Below are positions 1,197 to 33,596 of a stretch of DNA of 64,000 nt, in pieces. The notes below the pieces were generated by a model. The model searched no databases. It was not told the DNA's origin and was given only the letters and a program-made list of their open reading frames with translations. The DNA lies in contig NZ_LDZY01000008.1 of NCBI RefSeq assembly GCF_001029285.1, forward strand, positions 124,001 to 188,000. Direction: 5' to 3'. The position numbers were made by a program, and so were the translations under genes. Source of the stretch: Desulfosporosinus acididurans. GTDB lineage: Bacteria > Bacillota > Desulfitobacteriia > Desulfitobacteriales > Desulfitobacteriaceae. Every line of letters starts with the position of its first letter. Positions within the stretch are counted from its first letter, which is position 1.

Positions 1197-1929
1197 TTTG
1201 ATTAACTCCTTTCGCGCAGTTTGAACCGCAAAGACAAGCATCATTATTAAGAATTCTGGCCAAAATTGTGTCTCGTTCTGATTGGTCGCTAATCATTCCA
1301 TTTGACATCAAAATAATTTCATCAGCCAACTCCATGATACGTTCTTGATGAGAAATAATGACAATGGTAGTATCGTATTTTAAATGGATGTTTTTGAAAG
1401 TTTCTGCTAATTTTTGAAAACTCCATAAATCGATGCCGGCTTCCGGTTCATCAAACACTGCCAGCTTGAGATTTCGAGCAAGTACAGTAGCTATTTCGAT
1501 TCGCTTCATTTCACCGCCGGAAAGGCTGCTGTCCACATCTCGGTTGAGATAATCTTGTGCACATAACCCCACATCATAGAGCAGATCACAGATGTTCACT
1601 GTTTCAGGGTTATGAGATGCGGCCATTTTGAGGAGTTCTTTTACTTTTATTCCTTTAAAGCGAGGCGGATTTTGAAAGGCATATCCTATTCCCAAACGGG
1701 CTCTTTCCGTAATACTTAAGTTTGTAATATCTTGTCCATCGAGTAGAATTTTTCCTGCCGTGGGATTATAAACTCCCATGATTAGTTTAGCTAGAGATGA
1801 TTTCCCCCCACCATTGGGTCCTGTAATAACATATATCTTTTTTTCTAAAAACTTCAAATTAATCTCTTTGAGGATTTCGACCCCTTTTTCCTCATTGAGG
1901 CCCAGAGAAACATTCTGGATTTCAAGCAT
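1177..1929 (-). CDS. sufC: SufC-type Fe-S assembly ATPase
   Basis: ABC-type ATPase that energises the SufB-like scaffold; soluble, with no membrane partner. Visible motifs are Walker A GPNGGGKSS, signature LSGGEMKRIEIA, and Walker B LAVFDEPEAGID, whose EAGID ending is typical of SufC. The length of 250 residues is normal. The C-terminus carries an unusual cysteine-rich tail (CLCGSNC and a further Cys near the end) not needed for ATPase function; it might bind metal (inference). Start chosen at 1929, with GGAGG 7 bases upstream, instead of the longer frame to 1950. It is the first gene of a two-gene operon with sufB. Confidence 0.92.
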   Translation of the reverse strand: MLEIQNVSLGLNEEKGVEILKEINLKFLEKKIYVITGPNGGGKSSLAKLIMGVYNPTAGKILLDGQDITNLSITERARLGIGYAFQNPPRFKGIKVKELLKMAASHNPETVNICDLLYDVGLCAQDYLNRDVDSSLSGGEMKRIEIATVLARNLKLAVFDEPEAGIDLWSFQKLAETFKNIHLKYDTTIVIISHQERIMELADEIILMSNGMISDQSERDTILARILNNDACLCGSNCAKGVNQNAQCAG

Positions 1930-2083
1930 TGCTATTCCTCCTTCGTTCATCTAGATTCAACAATAACATAATCCGACATTATATTGTAGGGGTAACCTAA
2001 TTATTTTCAAAATAAACTATGTTCTTATTGTACAAGCCCCTGAATAAGTTTATGTAACTTGGGAATAAGAGGGGGAGAATTTT

Positions 2084-3616
2084 TTGGAAAGTATCTCTCG
2101 GTTTAAAATAAAGGACAACCTGATACCAATTTCTTATGGTTACTTTTTGGCCAAGAGTGATCCATTATTCTGGCGAAAGCTCTTAAAGAGGAAACCGGAA
2201 GATGCGGAGGCTATGTATCATGTAGCCCTGGAAATTGAGGGAAATGCTAAAAAAAGTCTTGGAAAATTCCTAAGGACTAGAAATGAAGGTTGTTTAGCAG
2301 CTTACCGAAAGGGGATAAAAGAGGCTTCGGATTTAATGCAGAGATCCTTGGGGAAGGGATATTATAAGGCCCGGACAGAGATTTTAAGAATACAGGAAGA
2401 AATCCATTCGACAGATAAAAGACTATCGTCAGTGAAGAAAAAAATAATGCCAAACAATAGAACCCTAATTTATGTTTTTTTGGCTGTGATCATTGTCCTC
2501 TTAATTTTAATAGCTATTTTAATTTGCCATCGGTCTTCGACAATGTATTTGGAGAACCATCGCTATACTTATATGTTACCCTATGAAGTTGTCGATAAAA
2601 AGCCGACGGGTATTCCAAAAACAGACTTAATTCCAATAACTATACAGGTTAAAGGAACAATAACAAAACAGCTCCTCGTAAATCAACTGATGGAAACTTT
2701 AAAACAAGATTACGAAAAAAATCCCACTGCCGGCAAATTAGTAGTCGCTAAAGATGAAGATCAGCGGGATGTGGGAATGGCTTATTGGGGGAGTGAGGAT
2801 AAAGAAATTGAAGTTTACATATATCCTTTTGACAGTATTTCCTCTGCGGGGGAGGAAAACTGTCAATTGTGGCAGGCAACTACGGTTATTAGAAGTGCCT
2901 TATATCAATTTGTTAAGCACAACGGATATATGCCCAAGGATTTAACGATGTTGACTAAGGCTTTTCCCCGAAATTATTTATCAGAACTTCCCTTAAACCC
3001 TTATAACATGGAGAATGACGTCACAACCTCTCCGTCAGGAGATGCGGGGTGGCTTTTTTCACCTTCAGGGGTCTCACCTGAAACGGATTTAATTCTCGCA
3101 GTAAGACAAGCACTAAAGCCGGCTATTCCCCAGGGTATCGATTTTTCCTTTGCGCCGATACAGATCAACATTAATAAGCTAAACCATGAACTCATGGTTA
3201 TGGCAGGAGATAGGACAATACGAAGCTACACTGTAGCTCTAGGAAAAAATAACCTAACGCCAGAAGGAAACATGTGGATTTCTAAAAGAATAGCCAACCC
3301 GGACAAAGGGGTTCCTAAGGCGGACAATGTTTATGGAACAAGGGCTATGGAATTGTCAAATCCTGGCTTTGCTATTCATGGCACAAATTCACCCGAAAGT
3401 ATTGGTAAGGATGTATCCTTAGGCTGTATTCGCTTAAACAATCTTCAAATGGAAGACCTTTATACCTTAACTCCATTGTATACTTATGTCAATATTTTCA
3501 AGAACCCAAATCTGCCCAATACTCAGATCAATCCTCCGGCCCTTTGTTTGGGACCTAATGGACAGCCAGACTATTCAAAAGAAGAGAGTCTAACATTTTA
3601 TCACTGGGGCGGGTAA
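2084..3616 (+). CDS. Membrane-anchored L,D-transpeptidase (YkuD domain)
   Basis: Predicted cell-wall enzyme making or remodelling 3-3 peptidoglycan cross-links. The 510-residue protein starts with a TTG codon after a GGGGGAG site. It has a cytoplasmic region of about 125 residues, one transmembrane helix (about 126-148, rich in I, L and V), an extracytoplasmic middle region of no recognised fold, and a C-terminal YkuD domain from about 360. The catalytic signature is complete: HGTNSPESIG followed by SLGCIRL, with the nucleophile Cys about residue 448. Single-gene unit, divergent from sufCB and convergent with htrA. The large cytoplasmic N-terminus is unusual for the family. Confidence 0.88.
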   Translation: MESISRFKIKDNLIPISYGYFLAKSDPLFWRKLLKRKPEDAEAMYHVALEIEGNAKKSLGKFLRTRNEGCLAAYRKGIKEASDLMQRSLGKGYYKARTEILRIQEEIHSTDKRLSSVKKKIMPNNRTLIYVFLAVIIVLLILIAILICHRSSTMYLENHRYTYMLPYEVVDKKPTGIPKTDLIPITIQVKGTITKQLLVNQLMETLKQDYEKNPTAGKLVVAKDEDQRDVGMAYWGSEDKEIEVYIYPFDSISSAGEENCQLWQATTVIRSALYQFVKHNGYMPKDLTMLTKAFPRNYLSELPLNPYNMENDVTTSPSGDAGWLFSPSGVSPETDLILAVRQALKPAIPQGIDFSFAPIQININKLNHELMVMAGDRTIRSYTVALGKNNLTPEGNMWISKRIANPDKGVPKADNVYGTRAMELSNPGFAIHGTNSPESIGKDVSLGCIRLNNLQMEDLYTLTPLYTYVNIFKNPNLPNTQINPPALCLGPNGQPDYSKEESLTFYHWGG

Positions 3617-3634
3617 GTTTTAGGCAAAAAGTCA

Positions 3635-3681
3635 AGGAGCCGTTGTTTCTCGAATAAAAAGTTCGTGAAACACGGCTTCTT
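3635..3681. terminator. Hairpin between convergent genes
   Basis: Inverted repeat AAGGAGCCGT/ACGGCTTCTT with inner GTTTC/GAAAC pairing, placed between the convergent L,D-transpeptidase and htrA genes. There is no long T-run, so terminator function is probable but not certain. Confidence 0.5.
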
Positions 3682-3715
3682 GCCAGGTTTTATCGCGGAG
3701 TAAACTCATTGATCT

Positions 3716-3749
3716 ATCCCGATGTTCAGCTTAAGCTGAACGAGTCCAT
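3716..3749 (+). repeat. Dispersed palindromic repeat, copy 2 (3' module only)
   Basis: Contains CCCGATGTTCAGC, a TTAAGCTGAA variant of the palindrome, and CGAGTCCA. It corresponds to the 3' module of the repeat family and abuts the stop codon of htrA. Confidence 0.6.
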
Positions 3750-5026
3750 TATTGATTTGAAGAAATTTCACCAAGAGTTGCCTGAACAGTTTTTGTTTTT
3801 CCATCGCGGACGAAAGTTATTGATATTTTGCTTCCGACGGAGTATTGATAGAGATCGTGAACAAGGTCAGAAGAGCTTTGAACTTGAGCATTGTTGATTT
3901 TTGTAATGACATCACCTTTAACGATGCCAGCTTTATCAGCAGGGCCATCGGGGGTTACACTGGCAATATAGGCTCCAAGAGGGAGATTGTTGTCTTGGGC
4001 GTAAGAAAGATATTGGTCGTTTGTTGTTACTAGAAGAGCGGGATGTGTCGCTACACCAGTTTTAATTAATTGCTCTATTGTCGGCAGAGCATCTGAAATA
4101 GGGATTGAGAAGCCCATTCCCTCAAAGCCGGATTCCGCGTATTTGGCGGAATTAATGCCTATAACGTTTCCTTGGTAATCGACAAGCGGTCCGCCGCTGT
4201 TACCGGGATTAATTGCTGCATCCGTTTGAATAAGATTGAAGCTTGATTCTCCTTGAATGTCGAGAGTACGATCAGTTGCTGAGACAACACCTGCAGTCAC
4301 AGAACGGGCAAATTCAGCACCACCGGGATTGCCGATGGCAACTACGGGTTCTCCGACTTGAAGTTTGCTTGAATCCCCGAGCTTAACTGCAGTTAAGTTC
4401 TTAGTGTCGGGGATTTGTAAAACAGCCAGGTCTGTGCGCGGGTCAGCGCCGATAACTTTTGCCACAAGATTGCGGCCATCGCTTAAGCTGACTGTGATTT
4501 TCTGTGCGCCATCAATAACGTGATTATTTGTGACGATATATCCTTTTTGAGCATCGATAATGAATCCCGAACCGCTGCCGGTTTCTTGGAGATTTGAACT
4601 GCTGCCGAAGACACTTTGACTGGATTGGAAATTTGAAACTCCGACTACAGCTGGACCTACCTCTTTGGCGATTTCAGTAACGGGAAAATTAGTTTGACTG
4701 GAAGGAGAAGCAGCGGTAGTAGAAACCTGAGCTATAGAGCTGGTTGTTTTGGCGGCAGCAGTAGTTGATAGAGCATTCGCAGGGTAAATTGCCGGAACGA
4801 CTGCTACGGCTGAAAGAGCACCAATGACGGCACTCATAACACAAAGTCCTGCTGTGGCAGCAAATCGTCTAGTTGGTTTTTTCTTGATTGGAGGCGGGGC
4901 AAATTGTGAATTGAAATCTTGAGATGAGTTTATATTTTGATTGAGGATAGTGCTTTCGTTAGACTGTTTTTCAAGTTGTGCCTGTTCGGCTCCATCTGTT
5001 TTGGTTAAGCGAATTTCTTCGTCCAT
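3749..5026 (-). CDS. htrA: HtrA/DegP-family membrane-anchored serine protease
   Basis: Envelope protein-quality-control protease, 425 residues. It has a polar cytoplasmic N-terminus (about 1-50), one transmembrane helix (about 53-80), a serine/threonine/alanine-rich linker, a trypsin-like domain and one C-terminal PDZ domain (about 320-420). The catalytic triad is visible: His in TNNHVIDGA, Asp in DPRTDLAVL, Ser in NPGNSGGPL. The start is supported by AGGAGG upstream. It is transcribed alone; the 457-base upstream region may hold stress-responsive control, but no operator was recognised. Confidence 0.94.
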   Translation of the reverse strand: MDEEIRLTKTDGAEQAQLEKQSNESTILNQNINSSQDFNSQFAPPPIKKKPTRRFAATAGLCVMSAVIGALSAVAVVPAIYPANALSTTAAAKTTSSIAQVSTTAASPSSQTNFPVTEIAKEVGPAVVGVSNFQSSQSVFGSSSNLQETGSGSGFIIDAQKGYIVTNNHVIDGAQKITVSLSDGRNLVAKVIGADPRTDLAVLQIPDTKNLTAVKLGDSSKLQVGEPVVAIGNPGGAEFARSVTAGVVSATDRTLDIQGESSFNLIQTDAAINPGNSGGPLVDYQGNVIGINSAKYAESGFEGMGFSIPISDALPTIEQLIKTGVATHPALLVTTNDQYLSYAQDNNLPLGAYIASVTPDGPADKAGIVKGDVITKINNAQVQSSSDLVHDLYQYSVGSKISITFVRDGKTKTVQATLGEISSNQ

Positions 5027-23675: not shown

Positions 23676-24887
23676 TTGGAAGTTATTCATCCACGGTGTT
23701 GCGGTATGGACATCCATAAGAAATCGATTACTGCATGTTGTATCACTCCTGATGGCAAAGAAACACAAACATTTGGCACGATGACAGACGATATTTTAAA
23801 TCTGGCTCAGTGGGTCAAGAGCAAAGGCTGTACCCAAGCAGCCATGGAAAGCACCGGCGTGTATTGGAAACCAATCTATAATGTTATGGAATTAGAAGAA
23901 ATTCCAACTCTAGTGGTTAATGCAGCACATATTAAAGCGGTACCTGGGCGTAAGACGGATGTTAAAGATGCAGAATGGATTGCCGATTTATTAAGGCATG
24001 GTCTCTTAAAAGGCAGCTATATTCCCGATAAAGATCAACGTGAATTGCGCGAGTTAGTTCGATATCGTAAGAGTCTTGTTAGTGAGCGTTCCCGTGAAGT
24101 CAATCGACTCGATAAAGTACTTCAAGGAGCCAACATCAAGCTATCTTCTGTAGCTACAGATATAATGGGTGTCTCAGGAAGAGCCATGCTTGAAGCGATG
24201 CTTAATGATCAGGAAGACACCAAAGTTCTGGCAGGATTAGCTAAAGGAAGACTTAAAAGTAAGATTGAAGATCTGGAGCGAGCTCTTAAAGGAATCATCG
24301 GCGACCATCAAAAGTTGCTTATTTCCACGCAACTAAAGCACATTGATTTTCTAACTCGACAGATTGAACTTCTGACTAAGGAAATTGGTCAAAGATTGCT
24401 CCCTTTTGAGGAAGACCTGGAGATATTGGATTCAATCCCCGGAATTGCTAGACGGGGTGCCGAAGAAATTCTAGCGGAAATTGGCACCGATATGAGCCGA
24501 TTTCCATCAGCAGCCCACTTATCTTCTTGGGCTGGAATGTCTCCAGGTAATCATGAAAGTGCCGGTAAACGAAAGTCCGGTAAAACAAACAAAGGGAATA
24601 AAGCCTTACGAACTGCCTTAGTAGAATCCGCGAATGCTGCATCACATACGAAAGATACCTATTTAGCTGCTAGATACCATCGCCTTGCTGCCCGAAGAGG
24701 TAAGAACCGTGCTGCTGTAGCTGTTGGACACTCTATTTTAGTATCCATTTATTATTTACTGAAAACACACCAAATGTATAAAGATTTAGGTGCTAACTAT
24801 ATCGATCATACTAAAAAGCAAGCAACCATTAGGAGATATCTTAAATCATTAGAAAGTTTAGGGGTGAATGTTCAAGTAGTTTCCTAA
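23676..24887 (+). CDS. IS110-family transposase (DEDD plus serine recombinase-like)
   Basis: 403-residue transposase. The N-terminal RuvC-like DEDD domain shows GMDIHKKSITACC, AMESTGVYWKP and GRKTDVKDAEWIADLLRHG; a coiled middle region follows, and the C-terminal Transposase_20 domain has SIPGIARRGAEEILAEIG and AHLSSWAGMSPGNHESAGKR with the conserved serine region. The frame begins with TTG at 23676. It appears intact, so the element may be active. Confidence 0.93.
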   Translation: MEVIHPRCCGMDIHKKSITACCITPDGKETQTFGTMTDDILNLAQWVKSKGCTQAAMESTGVYWKPIYNVMELEEIPTLVVNAAHIKAVPGRKTDVKDAEWIADLLRHGLLKGSYIPDKDQRELRELVRYRKSLVSERSREVNRLDKVLQGANIKLSSVATDIMGVSGRAMLEAMLNDQEDTKVLAGLAKGRLKSKIEDLERALKGIIGDHQKLLISTQLKHIDFLTRQIELLTKEIGQRLLPFEEDLEILDSIPGIARRGAEEILAEIGTDMSRFPSAAHLSSWAGMSPGNHESAGKRKSGKTNKGNKALRTALVESANAASHTKDTYLAARYHRLAARRGKNRAAVAVGHSILVSIYYLLKTHQMYKDLGANYIDHTKKQATIRRYLKSLESLGVNVQVVS

Positions 24888-25126: not shown

Positions 25127-25256
25127 GTTTTTCTATCAGTGGAGAAATTAAGCCGCTCTGAGCCAATAAATTGAAAAATCTTAACAAGTTAGTCTTATCT
25201 TCTTAAACTTCTTTTAAGAAACTATGAGTATAATGGTTTCCGGAGGTGCAAAAACA

Positions 25257-25787
25257 ATGGACGGATTTACATATGGCCGAACAAAATTTTCGCCTACGAT
25301 TATTTACGCATTAGTATGTGGATTTCTGACGGCGATATCATTATGGATGTCCTATCATGGGATAGCCGATTGGTCATTTAGGATGCAAAAAGGGTTTTGG
25401 AATCTCATGGGATTTTTCTCCCTGCTTTTCACGATAGGTTCCGTTATTCTCTGGTTCCTGAAAAAGAAGATAATTCGTGAGAAACAAAGAGTACCTGGAA
25501 GTTTAGCTTGGGTGAACGGCTCAACAATAAAGGGCCTGAGAGAAGCTCATGTCACTTTAGGATGGCTAGCGGTTACCTTTGGCCTTGGGCACAGTGCTTT
25601 TTATCTGGTAAATCTGCCGTCTAGAATGAATAATGTTTTCAGCGGTATTGTTGCTCTGGCAGGGATGATTCTCGTCTTGCTCACGGGCATAATGTACAAG
25701 CATAAGATGATTAGCATGAAGACTTGTAGAATGAGCCATAGAGTAATCTCTTGTATCTTTGGATTATTGATTTTAGCGCATATTTAG
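25257..25787 (+). CDS. Four-helix membrane protein, possible b-type haem/ferric reductase-like
   Basis: 176-residue integral membrane protein with about four to five predicted helices (roughly 13-33, 46-66, 90-110, 122-140, 155-175). Histidines are placed in helices in a pattern seen in haem-binding membrane proteins: REAHVTLGWL, GLGHSAFYLV, MSHRVISC and the C-terminal LAHI. That could bind two haems, but I do not recognise a named family. Start at 25257 follows CCGGAGGTG; the earlier ATG at 25224 is less likely. Monocistronic, followed by a terminator. Confidence 0.6.
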   Translation: MDGFTYGRTKFSPTIIYALVCGFLTAISLWMSYHGIADWSFRMQKGFWNLMGFFSLLFTIGSVILWFLKKKIIREKQRVPGSLAWVNGSTIKGLREAHVTLGWLAVTFGLGHSAFYLVNLPSRMNNVFSGIVALAGMILVLLTGIMYKHKMISMKTCRMSHRVISCIFGLLILAHI

Positions 25788-25993: not shown

Positions 25994-26623
25994 ATGTCAC
26001 TAAAACCAAGGCATATTTATTCAGAAGAGTGGAACCCTTCCCAGGAGCAGATTAATAGTATCTTTCCTCTGGATAAGATAACCTCAGAAATTGGCAGGGA
26101 GCCCGGTCTTAAGGTGCTTCGTGATGAGGAGATCAAGACGAAGTATCCCGCTCAATATAATATCTCTGTGCAAGCAAGGGCTTATAGCTTAGGATTAGTT
26201 GAACTGCTGCATGAATATTATGAGCCTAATAAAGAGAAGCCTGAACTTGGTGATTTAATTGGGGTAAAACTACCGCAAATTCTTTGGGAAGATAGTTTGG
26301 GTTATGAAGATAAGTTGGTCACCCTGCATATTTCTAAACTTAATAAGCAAGAAGTCTTTATCAATGATATCGTGCTCGTCAAAAATGAAGATTTTGATAT
26401 TCTCAGCGATGAATTGATTGATCAAGTACTTAATAATTTGAGGGTTTTTGCCAAAGAACAAGGCGCCAGGTATTTATCCGGTTATGCCGCTAATCGCAGC
26501 ACTTTAGCCCTCTTCAAAGGCAAGGGATTTCAAGAAGATAAGCGAGAGAATATGGGCAATGATTATCTCTGGAAAATCGCGGCAGTGACCGGAGAGCAGA
26601 TGCCTTTTTATACTGAACTATAA
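25994..26623 (+). CDS. Unknown protein with a GNAT-like C-terminal half
   Basis: 209-residue soluble protein. The C-terminal part (about 130-185) reads like an acetyltransferase fold end: LRVFAKEQGARYLSGYAANRS followed by LFKGKGF, reminiscent of the N-x-x-A-x-x-x-Y-x-K-x-G-F motif. The N-terminal 120 residues are not recognised. No acetyl-CoA loop (Q/R-x-x-G-x-G/A) is evident, so activity is doubtful. The ribosome site AAAGGCG is rather distant. It lies 67 bases before the candidate selenoprotein gene and may be co-transcribed with it. Confidence 0.55.
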   Translation: MSLKPRHIYSEEWNPSQEQINSIFPLDKITSEIGREPGLKVLRDEEIKTKYPAQYNISVQARAYSLGLVELLHEYYEPNKEKPELGDLIGVKLPQILWEDSLGYEDKLVTLHISKLNKQEVFINDIVLVKNEDFDILSDELIDQVLNNLRVFAKEQGARYLSGYAANRSTLALFKGKGFQEDKRENMGNDYLWKIAAVTGEQMPFYTEL

Positions 26624-26690
26624 ATGTCAATAATAAAGGATAATATGCTTTCCTAATATTCTTATTCATTATCTAAAAGGAGATTAAATA

Positions 26691-27308
26691 ATGGCCAAAA
26701 TCACTGTTTTTTCGGATTTCTTGTGACCCTTTTGTATGATTGGGAAAGTCCCCCTTGACCAGTTGGCCAAGGATAAAAATGTAGAAGTTGAATGGAAGTC
26801 CTTTGAATTAAGGCCGGAGGGAGTGGAAATTCCGCCTAAACCGCCTGAGTATTTGGAACGAGCGAAGGCGGGCATTGAAGCGATGGGACGTAAATACGGT
26901 ATGAAGATGGTATTTAATGATAAGAGCAAGCATTCCCGGTTGGCTTTGCAGGGTGCAAAGTATGCGGAAGAGCATGGGAAGGGAGACCAGTACCATAACA
27001 TTGTATTTGCGGCCCAATTTCAAGAACAGAAGGATATTAATGATCTTGAGGTATTAACGGAATTAGCCGGAGATGCAGGACTTGATCCGGAACAATTTCG
27101 GAAGGCATTGCTCTCAAAAGACTATGAACCGGCAGTTTTACAAGATTTAGAAGAAGCTCAAGCCTTAGGAATCCCGGGGGTTCCGTATTTTGTTGCTGAA
27201 GGCGGCAATGCATTTGGGGTTCAAAATTACGAAGATTTGGAGAAGCTTGTTTTTGGCACAAAATCAACCTCTGCGGGGCTGTCCATGGATTTGAAAGTCA
27301 AAGAATAG
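26691..27308 (+). CDS. DsbA/FrnE-family thiol oxidoreductase, candidate selenoprotein (Sec12)
   Basis: Thioredoxin-fold oxidoreductase of the 2-hydroxychromene isomerase/FrnE branch of DsbA, about 205 residues, cytoplasmic. Reading from ATG at 26691 (AAAGGAG 8 bases upstream) gives MAKITVFSDFL, then TGA at 26724-26726, then PFCMIGKVPLDQ in the same frame. In the family this site is S-D-x-x-C-P-W/F-C-x-x-G, so TGA takes the place of the first active-site cysteine, giving U-P-F-C. The rest is intact: an alpha-helical insert and the cis-Pro loop GIPGVPYFV near the C-terminus, stop TAG. Decoding TGA as selenocysteine is the simplest reading; a point-mutated pseudogene is the alternative. If TGA is taken as stop, only a fragment from 26736 would be annotated and the active site missed. 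Confidence 0.8.
26724..26760 (+). promoter_or_regulatory. Candidate bacterial SECIS hairpin after the in-frame TGA
   Basis: Right after the TGA, GGG (26742-26744) can pair with CCC (26750-26752) around loop AAAGT, 16 bases past the codon. That distance matches bacterial SECIS hairpins, whose apical loop lies roughly 16-37 bases downstream. The stem is short and I could not extend it convincingly, so this is tentative. Confidence 0.4.
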
Positions 27309-27375
27309 TTTATAAATTTATCTCTTGTCATGTTCAGTTGAGACCGCCAATCGAAAAGGCTGCATGGAAAAAACG

Positions 27376-27401
27376 AGGCTGCAAGAAATAGTTTGCAGCC
27401 T
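27376..27401 (+). terminator. Hairpin after the DsbA-like gene
   Basis: AGGCTGCAA pairs with TTGCAGCCT around an 8-base loop. Weak T-tail (TGAAATTT); it sits between the oxidoreductase and the URO-D-like gene. Confidence 0.55.
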
Positions 27402-27430
27402 TGAAATTTAGCTTGAGAGGATGTGACCAT

Positions 27431-28309
27431 GTGACAAAAGTTGAACGAATTTTGGCGGCAATAAACTTTGCGAAAGTGGATCATGTTCCCCAAGGAGAGT
27501 TTAGTCTTGATGACAATTTTGTGACTAAGCTACTCGGTCTTAAGGATCATGTGAGGTTTGAAGACCGGGTGGAGGCTTGTGAACGCTGCGGACTCGATGC
27601 TGTGGCTTTTGGTTTGGACAATGAACCCGGAAACCAAACAGGACTTTGGCAGGAATTAAAACTATGGAGAGAGGAAACCGATTTTTTTATTTTTGCCCTT
27701 ATTGATGGCCCGTTCCAGGGAACGGCTAAACTCTTTTCATCCTTTACCAATTATCTGTTAGCCATTGCTCAAGGGGATCCGATAATTCCGGAACTCGTCC
27801 AACAGGTGGCAGCGACGAACCTCGAATTGGGATTAAATGCCTTAGCACTCGGTGCTCATGGAATTATCATAGCTGATGATATTGCCTATAATGGAGGGAC
27901 ATTTGTTTCACCGGCTGCTCTGCGCCTAAATTTTTTTCCAGGCCTCAGAGAACAGGTTCAAATGATACAACGTGAAAAAGTTCCGGTTTTCTTCCATGCA
28001 GATGGTGACTTGAGAAAAGTGTTGCATGATATTGTGGATTTGGGAATAAATGGGCTGCATTCCCTTGACTTTCAATCATTAGAGGAGATATCTGAGGTTA
28101 GAAAAGCGACGGAAAATCGGGTCTGTCTTATGGGTGGTTATGATCTAGGATGGTTTGAAGAGGAGAAGAGAATAGAGAGAGCCTATAATTTGTTAGAGGT
28201 GACTGCCAAAGGCGGGGGATACATTTTCGGCAGCAGTGCGGGTATCCTTGGAAGCGGTCAAACTCCTCAAAATGTTCTTGAAGTGTACCGGTATGTCAAA
28301 AACTATTAA
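27431..28309 (+). CDS. Uroporphyrinogen decarboxylase-like (URO-D/MtaA family) protein
   Basis: 292-residue TIM-barrel protein of the URO-D superfamily, which holds true haem enzymes and corrinoid-linked methyltransferases (MtaA, CmuA). Visible family parts are ALGAHGIIIADDIAYNGGTF, VPVFFHADGDLRKVLHDIVD, GINGLHSLDFQS, and YIFGSSAGI near the end. It lacks the N-terminal RMPVW-like uroporphyrinogen signature, so a methyltransferase or other role is more probable than haem synthesis. Start is GTG at 27431, preceded by GAGAGGA; the longer TTG frame from 27401 overlaps the hairpin. Substrate unknown. Confidence 0.78.
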   Translation: MTKVERILAAINFAKVDHVPQGEFSLDDNFVTKLLGLKDHVRFEDRVEACERCGLDAVAFGLDNEPGNQTGLWQELKLWREETDFFIFALIDGPFQGTAKLFSSFTNYLLAIAQGDPIIPELVQQVAATNLELGLNALALGAHGIIIADDIAYNGGTFVSPAALRLNFFPGLREQVQMIQREKVPVFFHADGDLRKVLHDIVDLGINGLHSLDFQSLEEISEVRKATENRVCLMGGYDLGWFEEEKRIERAYNLLEVTAKGGGYIFGSSAGILGSGQTPQNVLEVYRYVKNY

Positions 28310-32000: not shown

Positions 32001-33596
32001 ATGTCAAACCAACAAGATACCCCAGTCATTCTGGCTGATCAAGTTCAGACAACTCTTACTTACCTTGAACCACTTTCCCGGAAGGCTTTTTTAGCGCTTG
32101 TTCCTCCAAGTTCTTTGAATAACCGTGCTGATGTGGATCAAGTACGTCAGCAATTAGAAAACATGTTTAACCCAGTGCGTATCCCTTTGGCTTTAATGAG
32201 TAAAATTCCCGATCTCTGCCGCAGTTCGGAATGGCAAATAACGGCTACTTTGGCCGAAACAGGTTTAGGCTGGGAGCTTATCGAGATCGAACCAGGGAAT
32301 AGGACTCAGGAGCAATTTGGTTTGGCCGTAGACATTGGAACAACGACAGTGGTTGTTTATTTAATCAACTTATGTAACGGAGACATTTTAGGGCATGCTG
32401 CAGATTACAATGGTCAGATAAGTTTGGGTGAAGATATATTAAGCCGCATTCGTCAGGCGGCTGAACCTGGTGGTATAAAACGTCTGCAAACCTTAATATT
32501 AGATACTCTTAATCGCTTAATTCGGTCTGTCTGCTCTTCCTTGATAAAGCCCTCTCAGATAACTGCAGCAGCTATCGGAGCTAATACAACAATGATTCAT
32601 CTTTTGCTTGGTCTCGACCCTGCTTCGATTTGCCGTGCTCCCTATACGCCGATTGTTAATAATCCAGGCTTAATCCCTGCAGGTGAGCTAGGCCTGGAGA
32701 TTCATCCCTTAGCGCCGATTTATTGTCTGCCCAGTATTGGCAGTTACTTAGGCGGAGATGTAATTGGCGGGGTTTTAGTCAGCGGCATGCACAAGAAATC
32801 TGATGTTTCCTTGTTTGTGGATATTGGCACTAATGGAGAAATAGTTATGGGCAATGAGGAATGGCTTGTAGCCTGTGCAGGAGCAGCCGGACCGGCCTTA
32901 GAGGGCGGGGTGACGACGTTTGGCATGCGGGCCGAGCCTGGAGCAGTCGATCATGTGGTCATTGATGGAGAGAGCGGAGGAGTTCGCTATACAACCATTG
33001 GCGATAAACCGGCACGGGGAATTTGCGGTTCAGGTTTAGTGGATATTTTAGCAGAGCTTTTTTTAAAGGGGATAATTGACCGGACAGCTCACTTTACAGA
33101 GGGCAGAGAGGAGTTTGTCATTGTTCCGGCAGGAGAGACAGCTATGGGAAAGGATATTGTTGTTAATCAGATTGATATTAATAACTTTATGGCAACCAAA
33201 GGAGCAGTCAACTCAGCGACGGATCTTCTGCTGGAAAATGTAGGCTGTCCTTGGCAGGATATTGGCAATTTTTATGCCGCGGGAGCCTTCGGTCAATACT
33301 TGCCGGTAGAATCCGCTGTTACGATTGGTCTTTATCCGGATCTCCCCCGAACTTCCATCATCCGTTTAGGCAACAGTTCAGGTGAGGCTGCCAGGCAGGT
33401 TCTGATCTCGCGCACGAAGCGTAAGGAGGCTGAGGCTATTGCCTCTAAGGTGACCTATTTTGAATTAAATGCCAATTCTTCCTTTATGGAAAAATTCGTA
33501 AGCAGCAAATTCCTCCCCCACACGGAGCTTGATCGCTATCCAAGTGTTAAAAAGAAATTAGAAAGCCGACTTAACTTCTCTATGGATGCACTATAA
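32001..33596 (+). CDS. ASKHA-domain (DUF4445) protein, RACo-like without ferredoxin domain
   Basis: 531-residue protein with the ASKHA ATPase fold of corrinoid-protein reductive activators (RACo, RamA). The phosphate loops are [12 protein letters not shown] (about 110) and [14 protein letters not shown] (about 275); other marks are [30 protein letters not shown] and [12 protein letters not shown]. RACo-type proteins usually begin with a [2Fe-2S] plant-type ferredoxin domain; here residues 1-105 have no such cysteine cluster, so electrons would have to come from another protein. The methyltransferase-type URO-D homologue at 27431 might be functionally related (inference). Its last 6 bases overlap the chemoreceptor gene on the other strand. 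Confidence 0.85.

Follow-up and report, generated by a model that had tools for sequence, protein, structure and literature searches.

The locus and its protein

We analysed a 64,000-nt stretch of Desulfosporosinus acididurans DNA (assembly GCF_001029285.1, contig NZ_LDZY01000008.1, positions 124,001 to 188,000; hereafter the window). The genome (G000) comprises 4.64 Mb on 47 contigs. Positions 26691 to 27308 of the window hold a gene for a DsbA/FrnE-like oxidoreductase with an in-frame TGA codon, and a preliminary description of the sequence had proposed it as a selenoprotein candidate. The gene is very probably intact, with TGA 26724 read as selenocysteine (Sec) in the active site. Its features are as follows.

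26691..27308, plus strand: predicted DsbA/FrnE-like selenoprotein gene, 205 amino acids (aa) with Sec12 and a U-P-F-C active site (read-through frame, Pfam, FrnE alignment, TGA in 26 of 26 orthologues)
26675..26682, plus strand: AAAAGGAG, Shine-Dalgarno-like, 8 nt upstream of the ATG (sequence)
26724..26726, plus strand: TGA codon, residue 12, probably Sec, aligned with the first Cys of the active site (sequence, FrnE alignment, homologues)
26733..26735, plus strand: Cys15 (TGT), resolving Cys of U-P-F-C and sole Cys in the protein (sequence)
27183..27185, plus strand: cis-Pro165 of the thioredoxin fold, in G-V-P (sequence, FrnE alignment)

The TGA is followed directly by CCC TTT TGT, and the frame closes at TAG 27306-27308. 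The read-through protein matched PF01323 (DSBA) over residues 4-186 (3.7e-35, 121.9 bits; cut-off 25.6). A phmmer search against PDB aligned residues 3-186 with FrnE (5cnw and 5cp1, 1.3e-20) and placed residue 12 opposite the N-terminal Cys of C-P-W-C in FrnE. The start context, the position of the TGA at the first Cys of a C-P-F-C motif, the second Cys and cis-Pro of an intact frame, and the family assignment all agree with the preliminary description. As it had also foreseen, standard gene calling yields only a truncated open reading frame (ORF), 26736-27308.

The window protein differs from FrnE in having Sec for Cys, in its length (205 residues versus 260 in the PDB chain), and in lacking a C-terminal CXXXXC. 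Passages of PMC8945050 propose that FrnE of Deinococcus radiodurans is a cytoplasmic disulfide reductase, and that the C-terminal CXXXXC, present in many members but not all, regenerates the active site. The gene was the single DSBA-domain match in its genome. NCBIfam gave one match, to a '(seleno)lipoprotein' family, at 38.3 bits, far under the cut-off of 190. The cis-Pro is directly followed by Cys in 19 of the 26 orthologues (L010-L028), and by Tyr in L004-L009 and the window protein itself. An AlphaFold single-sequence model of the read-through protein (P0001) was poor (mean pLDDT 49.7). A plasmid search, assessed at the level of identity only, returned 303 records, every one below 60% identity.

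Conservation of the TGA codon and selenocysteine machinery

The family search gave matches in 28 of 45 genomes. An orthologue was present in 26 of the 29 Desulfosporosinus genomes, and the same codon was TGA in all 26, followed by P-F-C or P-Y-C. The recurrence of TGA at one codon in separate genomes is more than chance would give, in line with the earlier remark that random nonsense mutations rarely strike such a residue. Pairwise identity among the orthologues was at least 60% (mean 70%); one of them, L028, is cut by a contig end. The genus genomes without an orthologue match were G020 (98% complete), G026 (79%) and G029 (85%). Desulfosporosinus sp. FKB (L002) encodes a protein 93% identical to the window protein; it was left out of the orthologue count as a separate case, its match coordinates being the same as in G024. 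On the 5′ side of the TGA, residues were kept and variation was mostly third-base, indicating that the stretch upstream of the TGA is translated. The internal ATG at 26736 was not kept: L010, L018 and L026 have Ile (ATC or ATA) at this position. The terminal stop was TGA in 9 of the 26 orthologues.

Two genus members also carry diverged second DsbA-like copies with TGA (L031:1296-1919 and L032:1495-1695, the latter a fragment). Both copies have a strong hairpin resembling a selenocysteine insertion sequence (SECIS), UCGGCAAG-GUC-CUUGCCGA, with its loop 21 nt after the UGA.

In a phylum sample of 398 genomes, 35 had a match at 1e-10. Outside the genus, all 10 TGA-containing loci examined (a match in G461 was left out) have the TGA at the active-site codon. 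Beyond the window gene, the TGA-containing homologues thus comprise 25 genus orthologues, the two paralogues and these 10 loci. The TGA-free homologues have TGT or TGC in the TGA column in 18 of 18 examined cases, although the motif by which the active-site place was found also admitted S, A or T. These 18 loci are 17 from the phylum sample plus L030; 5 further TGA-free matches were left out. Both comparisons proposed in the preliminary description, for Cys in the same column and for other TGA-containing homologues, therefore came out in favour of Sec.

A tree of 54 rows (36 Sec and 18 Cys) grouped 25 genus rows with L056 (support 100/97); with L057 added, support was 90/67, and all members are Sec rows. 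At least three Sec/Cys changes are needed on this tree, two of them forced by well-supported branches. The distant relative L057 (G118:C35:1209-1721) keeps the Sec-codon TGA, but its frame is interrupted again 22 codons further on by a TAG, and it lacks a clear SECIS. Pyrrolysine was considered as the cause of this TAG and rejected; no PylS match over the cut-off was found in any of the three genomes searched. Since the L057 genome itself has no such match, the L057 gene may be decaying or contain a sequence error.

The window genome contains selA, selB, selD and tRNA-Sec (selC), the machinery for which the preliminary description had proposed a search. selA (565.6 bits) adjoins a TGA-containing selD (404.3 bits) on contig C10, and on C3 selB (379.6 bits) is ~1 kb from tRNA-Sec (64.9 bits, anticodon TCA). 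Three selD genes scored over the cut-off (L050, L051 and L052); two of them have TGA, and the third has Cys in that motif. The second TGA-containing selD and the TGA-free selD lie away from the selA locus. A formate dehydrogenase alpha model gave 21 matches, 3 with TGA, two of these over the cut-off.

The RNA element downstream of the TGA

Synonymous codon choice was frozen immediately downstream of the TGA. The comparison covered 97 codon columns with the residue conserved in at least 22 of the 26 sequences, Met and Trp excluded. Of the 10 conserved columns at +6 to +15 after the TGA, 8 used a single codon, versus 0 of 87 elsewhere in the gene (Fisher test 3e-10, shared ancestry ignored). This frozen stretch spans alignment columns 19-49 and folds into two hairpins with a single linker base between them.

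26742..26752, plus strand: hairpin 1, GGGA-AAG-UCCC, the hairpin of the preliminary description (4 pairs invariant in 26 distinct rows)
26753, plus strand: linker base at the third position of a Pro codon, varying C/A/G (alignment)
26754..26771, plus strand: hairpin 2, CUUGACC-AGUU-GGCCAAG, probable SelB-binding SECIS hairpin with its loop 34 nt after the UGA (fold, pairing, SECIS scan)

The columns of the element that varied were two hairpin-1 loop bases, the linker base, the A-C mismatch position of hairpin 2, and two further stem positions. The mismatch position is A-U in 4 of 26 distinct rows; the other two stem positions show U-G (4 rows), G-U (1 row) or a broken pair (L009). Where Val is replaced by Ile in hairpin 1, the last two codon bases, UC, are unchanged. 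The AGUU loop of hairpin 2 is invariant in 27 of 27 rows. L056, which comes from another class and has 56% identity, carries the element too, and there every position of the hairpin-2 stem is paired.

The 36-nt fold of the window sequence had a free energy of -12.5 kcal/mol, versus -4.2 ± 1.9 kcal/mol in synonymous shuffles, none of 2000 being as low. Nine group members (8 of the 26 plus L056) had at most 4 of 2000 shuffles as low, and four other Sec homologues had 7-42. The Cys homologues L058 and L029 gave no fold signal (1218 and 998 of 2000), and L065 and L071 gave little (173 and 225). The structure paired in 92.0% of cells, versus 18.5-59.4% when it was slid by 1-3 columns. A covariance model of the whole element found one strong match per genome (74.5-82.2 bits) in 26 genomes, at the selenoprotein gene, and five further matches at 19-22 bits; nearly all of the 26 sequences had also built the model, and 150 of 1401-4474 first-look candidates were scored per genome. 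Rfam, applied to 26600-27400, gave only SNORD93 (22.7 bits; gathering score 60).

PMC13188914 models the bacterial SECIS as a loop of 3-9 nt with a G among its first two positions on a stem of 4-16 bp, with the loop 16-37 nt after the UGA and a minimum free energy of -7.5 kcal/mol or lower. Hairpin 2 has this shape: a 4-nt AGUU loop at 34 nt, inside the published range, and a stem of 7-8 positions with one A-C mismatch. Prediction with the bacterial model, as the preliminary description had suggested, was thus borne out for loop, stem and spacing. For energy the figures fall on either side of the cut-off, depending on the stretch to which the published value applies: alone, hairpin 2 folded at -7.1 kcal/mol, and the -12.5 kcal/mol given above is for both hairpins. 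The cut-off itself separates poorly: of the 11 other Sec loci in our scan 5 pass it, as do 2 of the 18 Cys loci. In 10 of these 11 Sec loci (L031, L032, L059, L061-L064, L067, L068 and L070) the loop of the best hairpin lies at 20-21 nt, with energies of -5.6 to -11.0 kcal/mol; L057 reached -2.4 kcal/mol. Any hairpin of -5.6 kcal/mol or lower was found in 2 of 18 Cys loci.

The hairpin reported in the preliminary description, with loop AAAGT from the 16th base after the TGA, is present as described (GGG-AAAGT-CCC). As the sole SECIS it was set aside and kept as a rival only, because its loop G is not conserved: 23 of 27 rows lack G in the first two loop bases. Hairpin 2 fits the SECIS model better and is probably the hairpin bound by SelB. 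The SECIS loops of the same genome lie 17 nt (two TGA-containing selD) and 18 nt (three TGA-containing fdhA-type genes) after the UGA, and one of the latter, L087, also has an AGUU loop. Most selD and fdhA-type stems are preceded by 10-12 unpaired bases. Hairpin 1 may serve as a compact spacer, because when it is folded only 16 unpaired bases (15 plus the linker) remain between the UGA and hairpin 2, nearer to these 10-12.

The roles of the two hairpins might be reversed, with hairpin 1 as the SECIS and hairpin 2 as an accessory stabiliser of a selenoprotein gene. The loop of hairpin 1, 19 nt after the UGA, is near the 17-18 nt of the selD and fdhA-type genes, and its four pairs never vary; however, the codon freeze extends through hairpin 2, whose loop is the invariant one. 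We consider this arrangement unlikely. In the SECIS scan the AGUU hairpin was best in 20 of the 26 orthologues. A long alternative hairpin (GAUUGG..CCAGUU) was favoured in some single-sequence folds and was best in the other 6 scan rows; it was ruled out by variation of its first strand, where the Ile codon is ATA in 11 of 26 and ATC in 2 of 26.

Several observations weigh against hairpin 2 as the SECIS, or against the element as a whole. Another hairpin scored best in those 6 rows. The chief weakness is energetic: taken by itself, hairpin 2 reaches -3.8 to -7.1 kcal/mol in most rows, largely owing to the A-C mismatch, and among the rows in which the AGUU hairpin was best only L011 (-12.2 kcal/mol; one of 20 genus rows) and L056 (-8.9 kcal/mol, outside the genus) pass -7.5 kcal/mol. 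L009 breaks one hairpin-2 pair, as noted above, and the Cys homologue L060 shows some fold signal too, with 36 of 2000 shuffles as low. No pair varies on both sides, so that the helices have no compensatory proof, and column shuffles pair equally. Covariation was therefore dropped as structural proof, and the argument rests on the synonymous freeze and the shuffles.

It is conceivable, though rather doubtful, that the subclade possesses a two-part SECIS, in which the conserved 4-bp mini-hairpin folds away part of the mRNA after the UGA and brings the distal 34-nt AGUU hairpin into range of the ribosome. The SECIS would then have moved within the gene from ~20 nt, as in other DsbA-like selenoproteins, to 34 nt, with one SelB serving both.

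Interpretation and genomic context

Under the Sec reading, tRNA-Sec and SelB would decode UGA 26724 under the direction of an mRNA element lying 16-45 nt past it. This element consists of the 4-bp mini-hairpin (26742-26752) and then the probable SelB hairpin with its AGUU loop (26754-26771). The product would be a DsbA/FrnE-type dithiol-disulfide oxidoreductase with Sec as the attacking residue (U12-P-F-C15). It is probably cytosolic, no signal peptide being seen by eye, and by analogy with FrnE its chemistry may be reductase-like. In catalysis, the Sec selenolate would react with a disulfide or a comparable oxidised substrate, and the selenenylsulfide so formed would be resolved by C15. With C15 as its sole Cys, the protein would depend on a partner for re-reduction.

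Computation shows an open frame of a recognised family, a TGA that never varies, the Sec machinery, constraint on synonymous codons and a folded stretch downstream. From them we infer the insertion of Sec itself, and this step counts as a reservation alongside those given for the element. The preliminary description had named the absence of Sec machinery, or an unrelated residue in the homologues, as grounds for abandoning the Sec reading. It had also named a resequenced TGT or TGC at 26724. Where this could be tested, the machinery was present, the TGA-free homologues had Cys, and the TGA recurred in orthologues from 26 separate genomes; the Sec reading is thus supported.

Other readings of the TGA can be judged on the same data. 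That it is a nonsense mutation or a sequencing error in a pseudogene would be in keeping with the truncated ORF of standard gene calling, and with the extra TAG and unclear SECIS of the distant L057. This explanation is in effect refuted by conservation across the genus, all 26 orthologues having TGA at this codon and kept residues before and after it; the codon freeze and fold, specific to the stretch downstream of the TGA, also stand against it, and its probability is next to negligible. Translation might instead start at ATG 26736, 4 codons past the TGA, which would yield a 190-aa product lacking the active site and make the upstream codons a leader. This is extremely improbable: three orthologues have Ile in place of this Met, the upstream codons, with their mostly third-base variation, encode a conserved K-I-T-V-F-S-D-F-L strand, and the ribosome site precedes 26691.

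Some readthrough of UGA occurs in bacteria, and the codon could in principle be read non-specifically, or as Trp or Cys, without SelB. Against this, none of the 26 orthologues has TAA or TAG in place of the TGA, which stands at the exact Sec-replaceable column; the genome encodes the whole Sec machinery, and the mRNA has a structured element after the codon; and TGA also serves as the terminal stop in 9 of the orthologues. We regard such decoding as very improbable.

Directly upstream of the selenoprotein gene lies a conserved neighbour.

25994..26623, plus strand: gene for an uncharacterised 209-aa protein (neighbour of the selenoprotein gene at 25 of the 26 loci; the contig ends in the 26th)

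The gap between the two genes is ~3-6 bases in 17 of 25 loci and 67 bases in the window; the short gap suggests that they form an operon. For the 209-aa protein, neither Pfam (up to E 5) nor NCBIfam (up to E 1) gave a match; judged by eye only, its C-terminus resembles a GNAT acetyltransferase, and its AlphaFold single-sequence model was poor (mean pLDDT 40.6). Further upstream, 25224-25787 encodes a 187-aa protein, probably a membrane protein by eye, with a sub-threshold ferric-reductase-like match (E 0.017); this gene also lies upstream of the orthologue in L004, L011, L015 and L028. Downstream, 27401-28309 encodes a Uroporphyrinogen-decarboxylase/MtaA-like methyltransferase (PF01208, 1.3e-11), found within the examined flank in 5 of 26 loci, the window included. 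Elsewhere in the window are an IS110-type transposase gene (23676-24887; PF01548, PF02371) and a gene for a RACo-type protein (32001-33596; PF14574 1.2e-92, PF17651, PF17650). Scanned for frames in which an inner TGA is preceded by a start codon and followed by 120 or more codons, the window yielded 10, one of them the selenoprotein gene. Two others were checked in Pfam: one proved to be two ordinary adjacent genes, and the second has a ROK-family protein upstream and 181 codons past the TGA that match nothing.

Sargasso Sea data yielded a description of DsbA-like UxxC selenoproteins, under COG2761, in 2005 (PMC1088965), and a table in PMC1794560 includes one from Desulfotomaculum reducens. 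By 2016 the count was 45 in 41 organisms (PMC5029168), and a 2026 inventory has the entry 'DsbA-like protein form 1, PF01323, UxxC' (PMC13188914). The protein type is therefore not new: the window protein very probably belongs to the DsbA-like selenoproteins. It shares with form 1 the PF01323/COG2761 fold, probable Sec as the first residue of U-x-x-C, and a candidate bacterial SECIS downstream. The window group differs from other DsbA-like Sec homologues in forming the distinct, well-supported subclade of 26 rows described above, in having its SECIS candidate at 34 nt rather than 20-21 nt (10 of 11 others; none of note in L057), and in the extra mini-hairpin before it. The SECIS elements of selD and the fdhA-type genes in the same genome, one of them identical in its loop, likewise lie closer to the UGA. 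Among the titles listed by searches aimed at them, in a collection lacking most subscription papers, none dealt with this protein or with a two-hairpin bacterial SECIS. The long-spacing two-hairpin SECIS could be a novelty.

These results point to a redox enzyme conserved across a sulfate-reducing genus that ordinary gene calling misses, keeping only the part without the active site. The synonymous codons of 26 genomes give an unusually sharp view of the bases that a SECIS needs. The gene also offers a case, open to test, in which one SelB would serve SECIS hairpins at both 17-18 nt and 34 nt.
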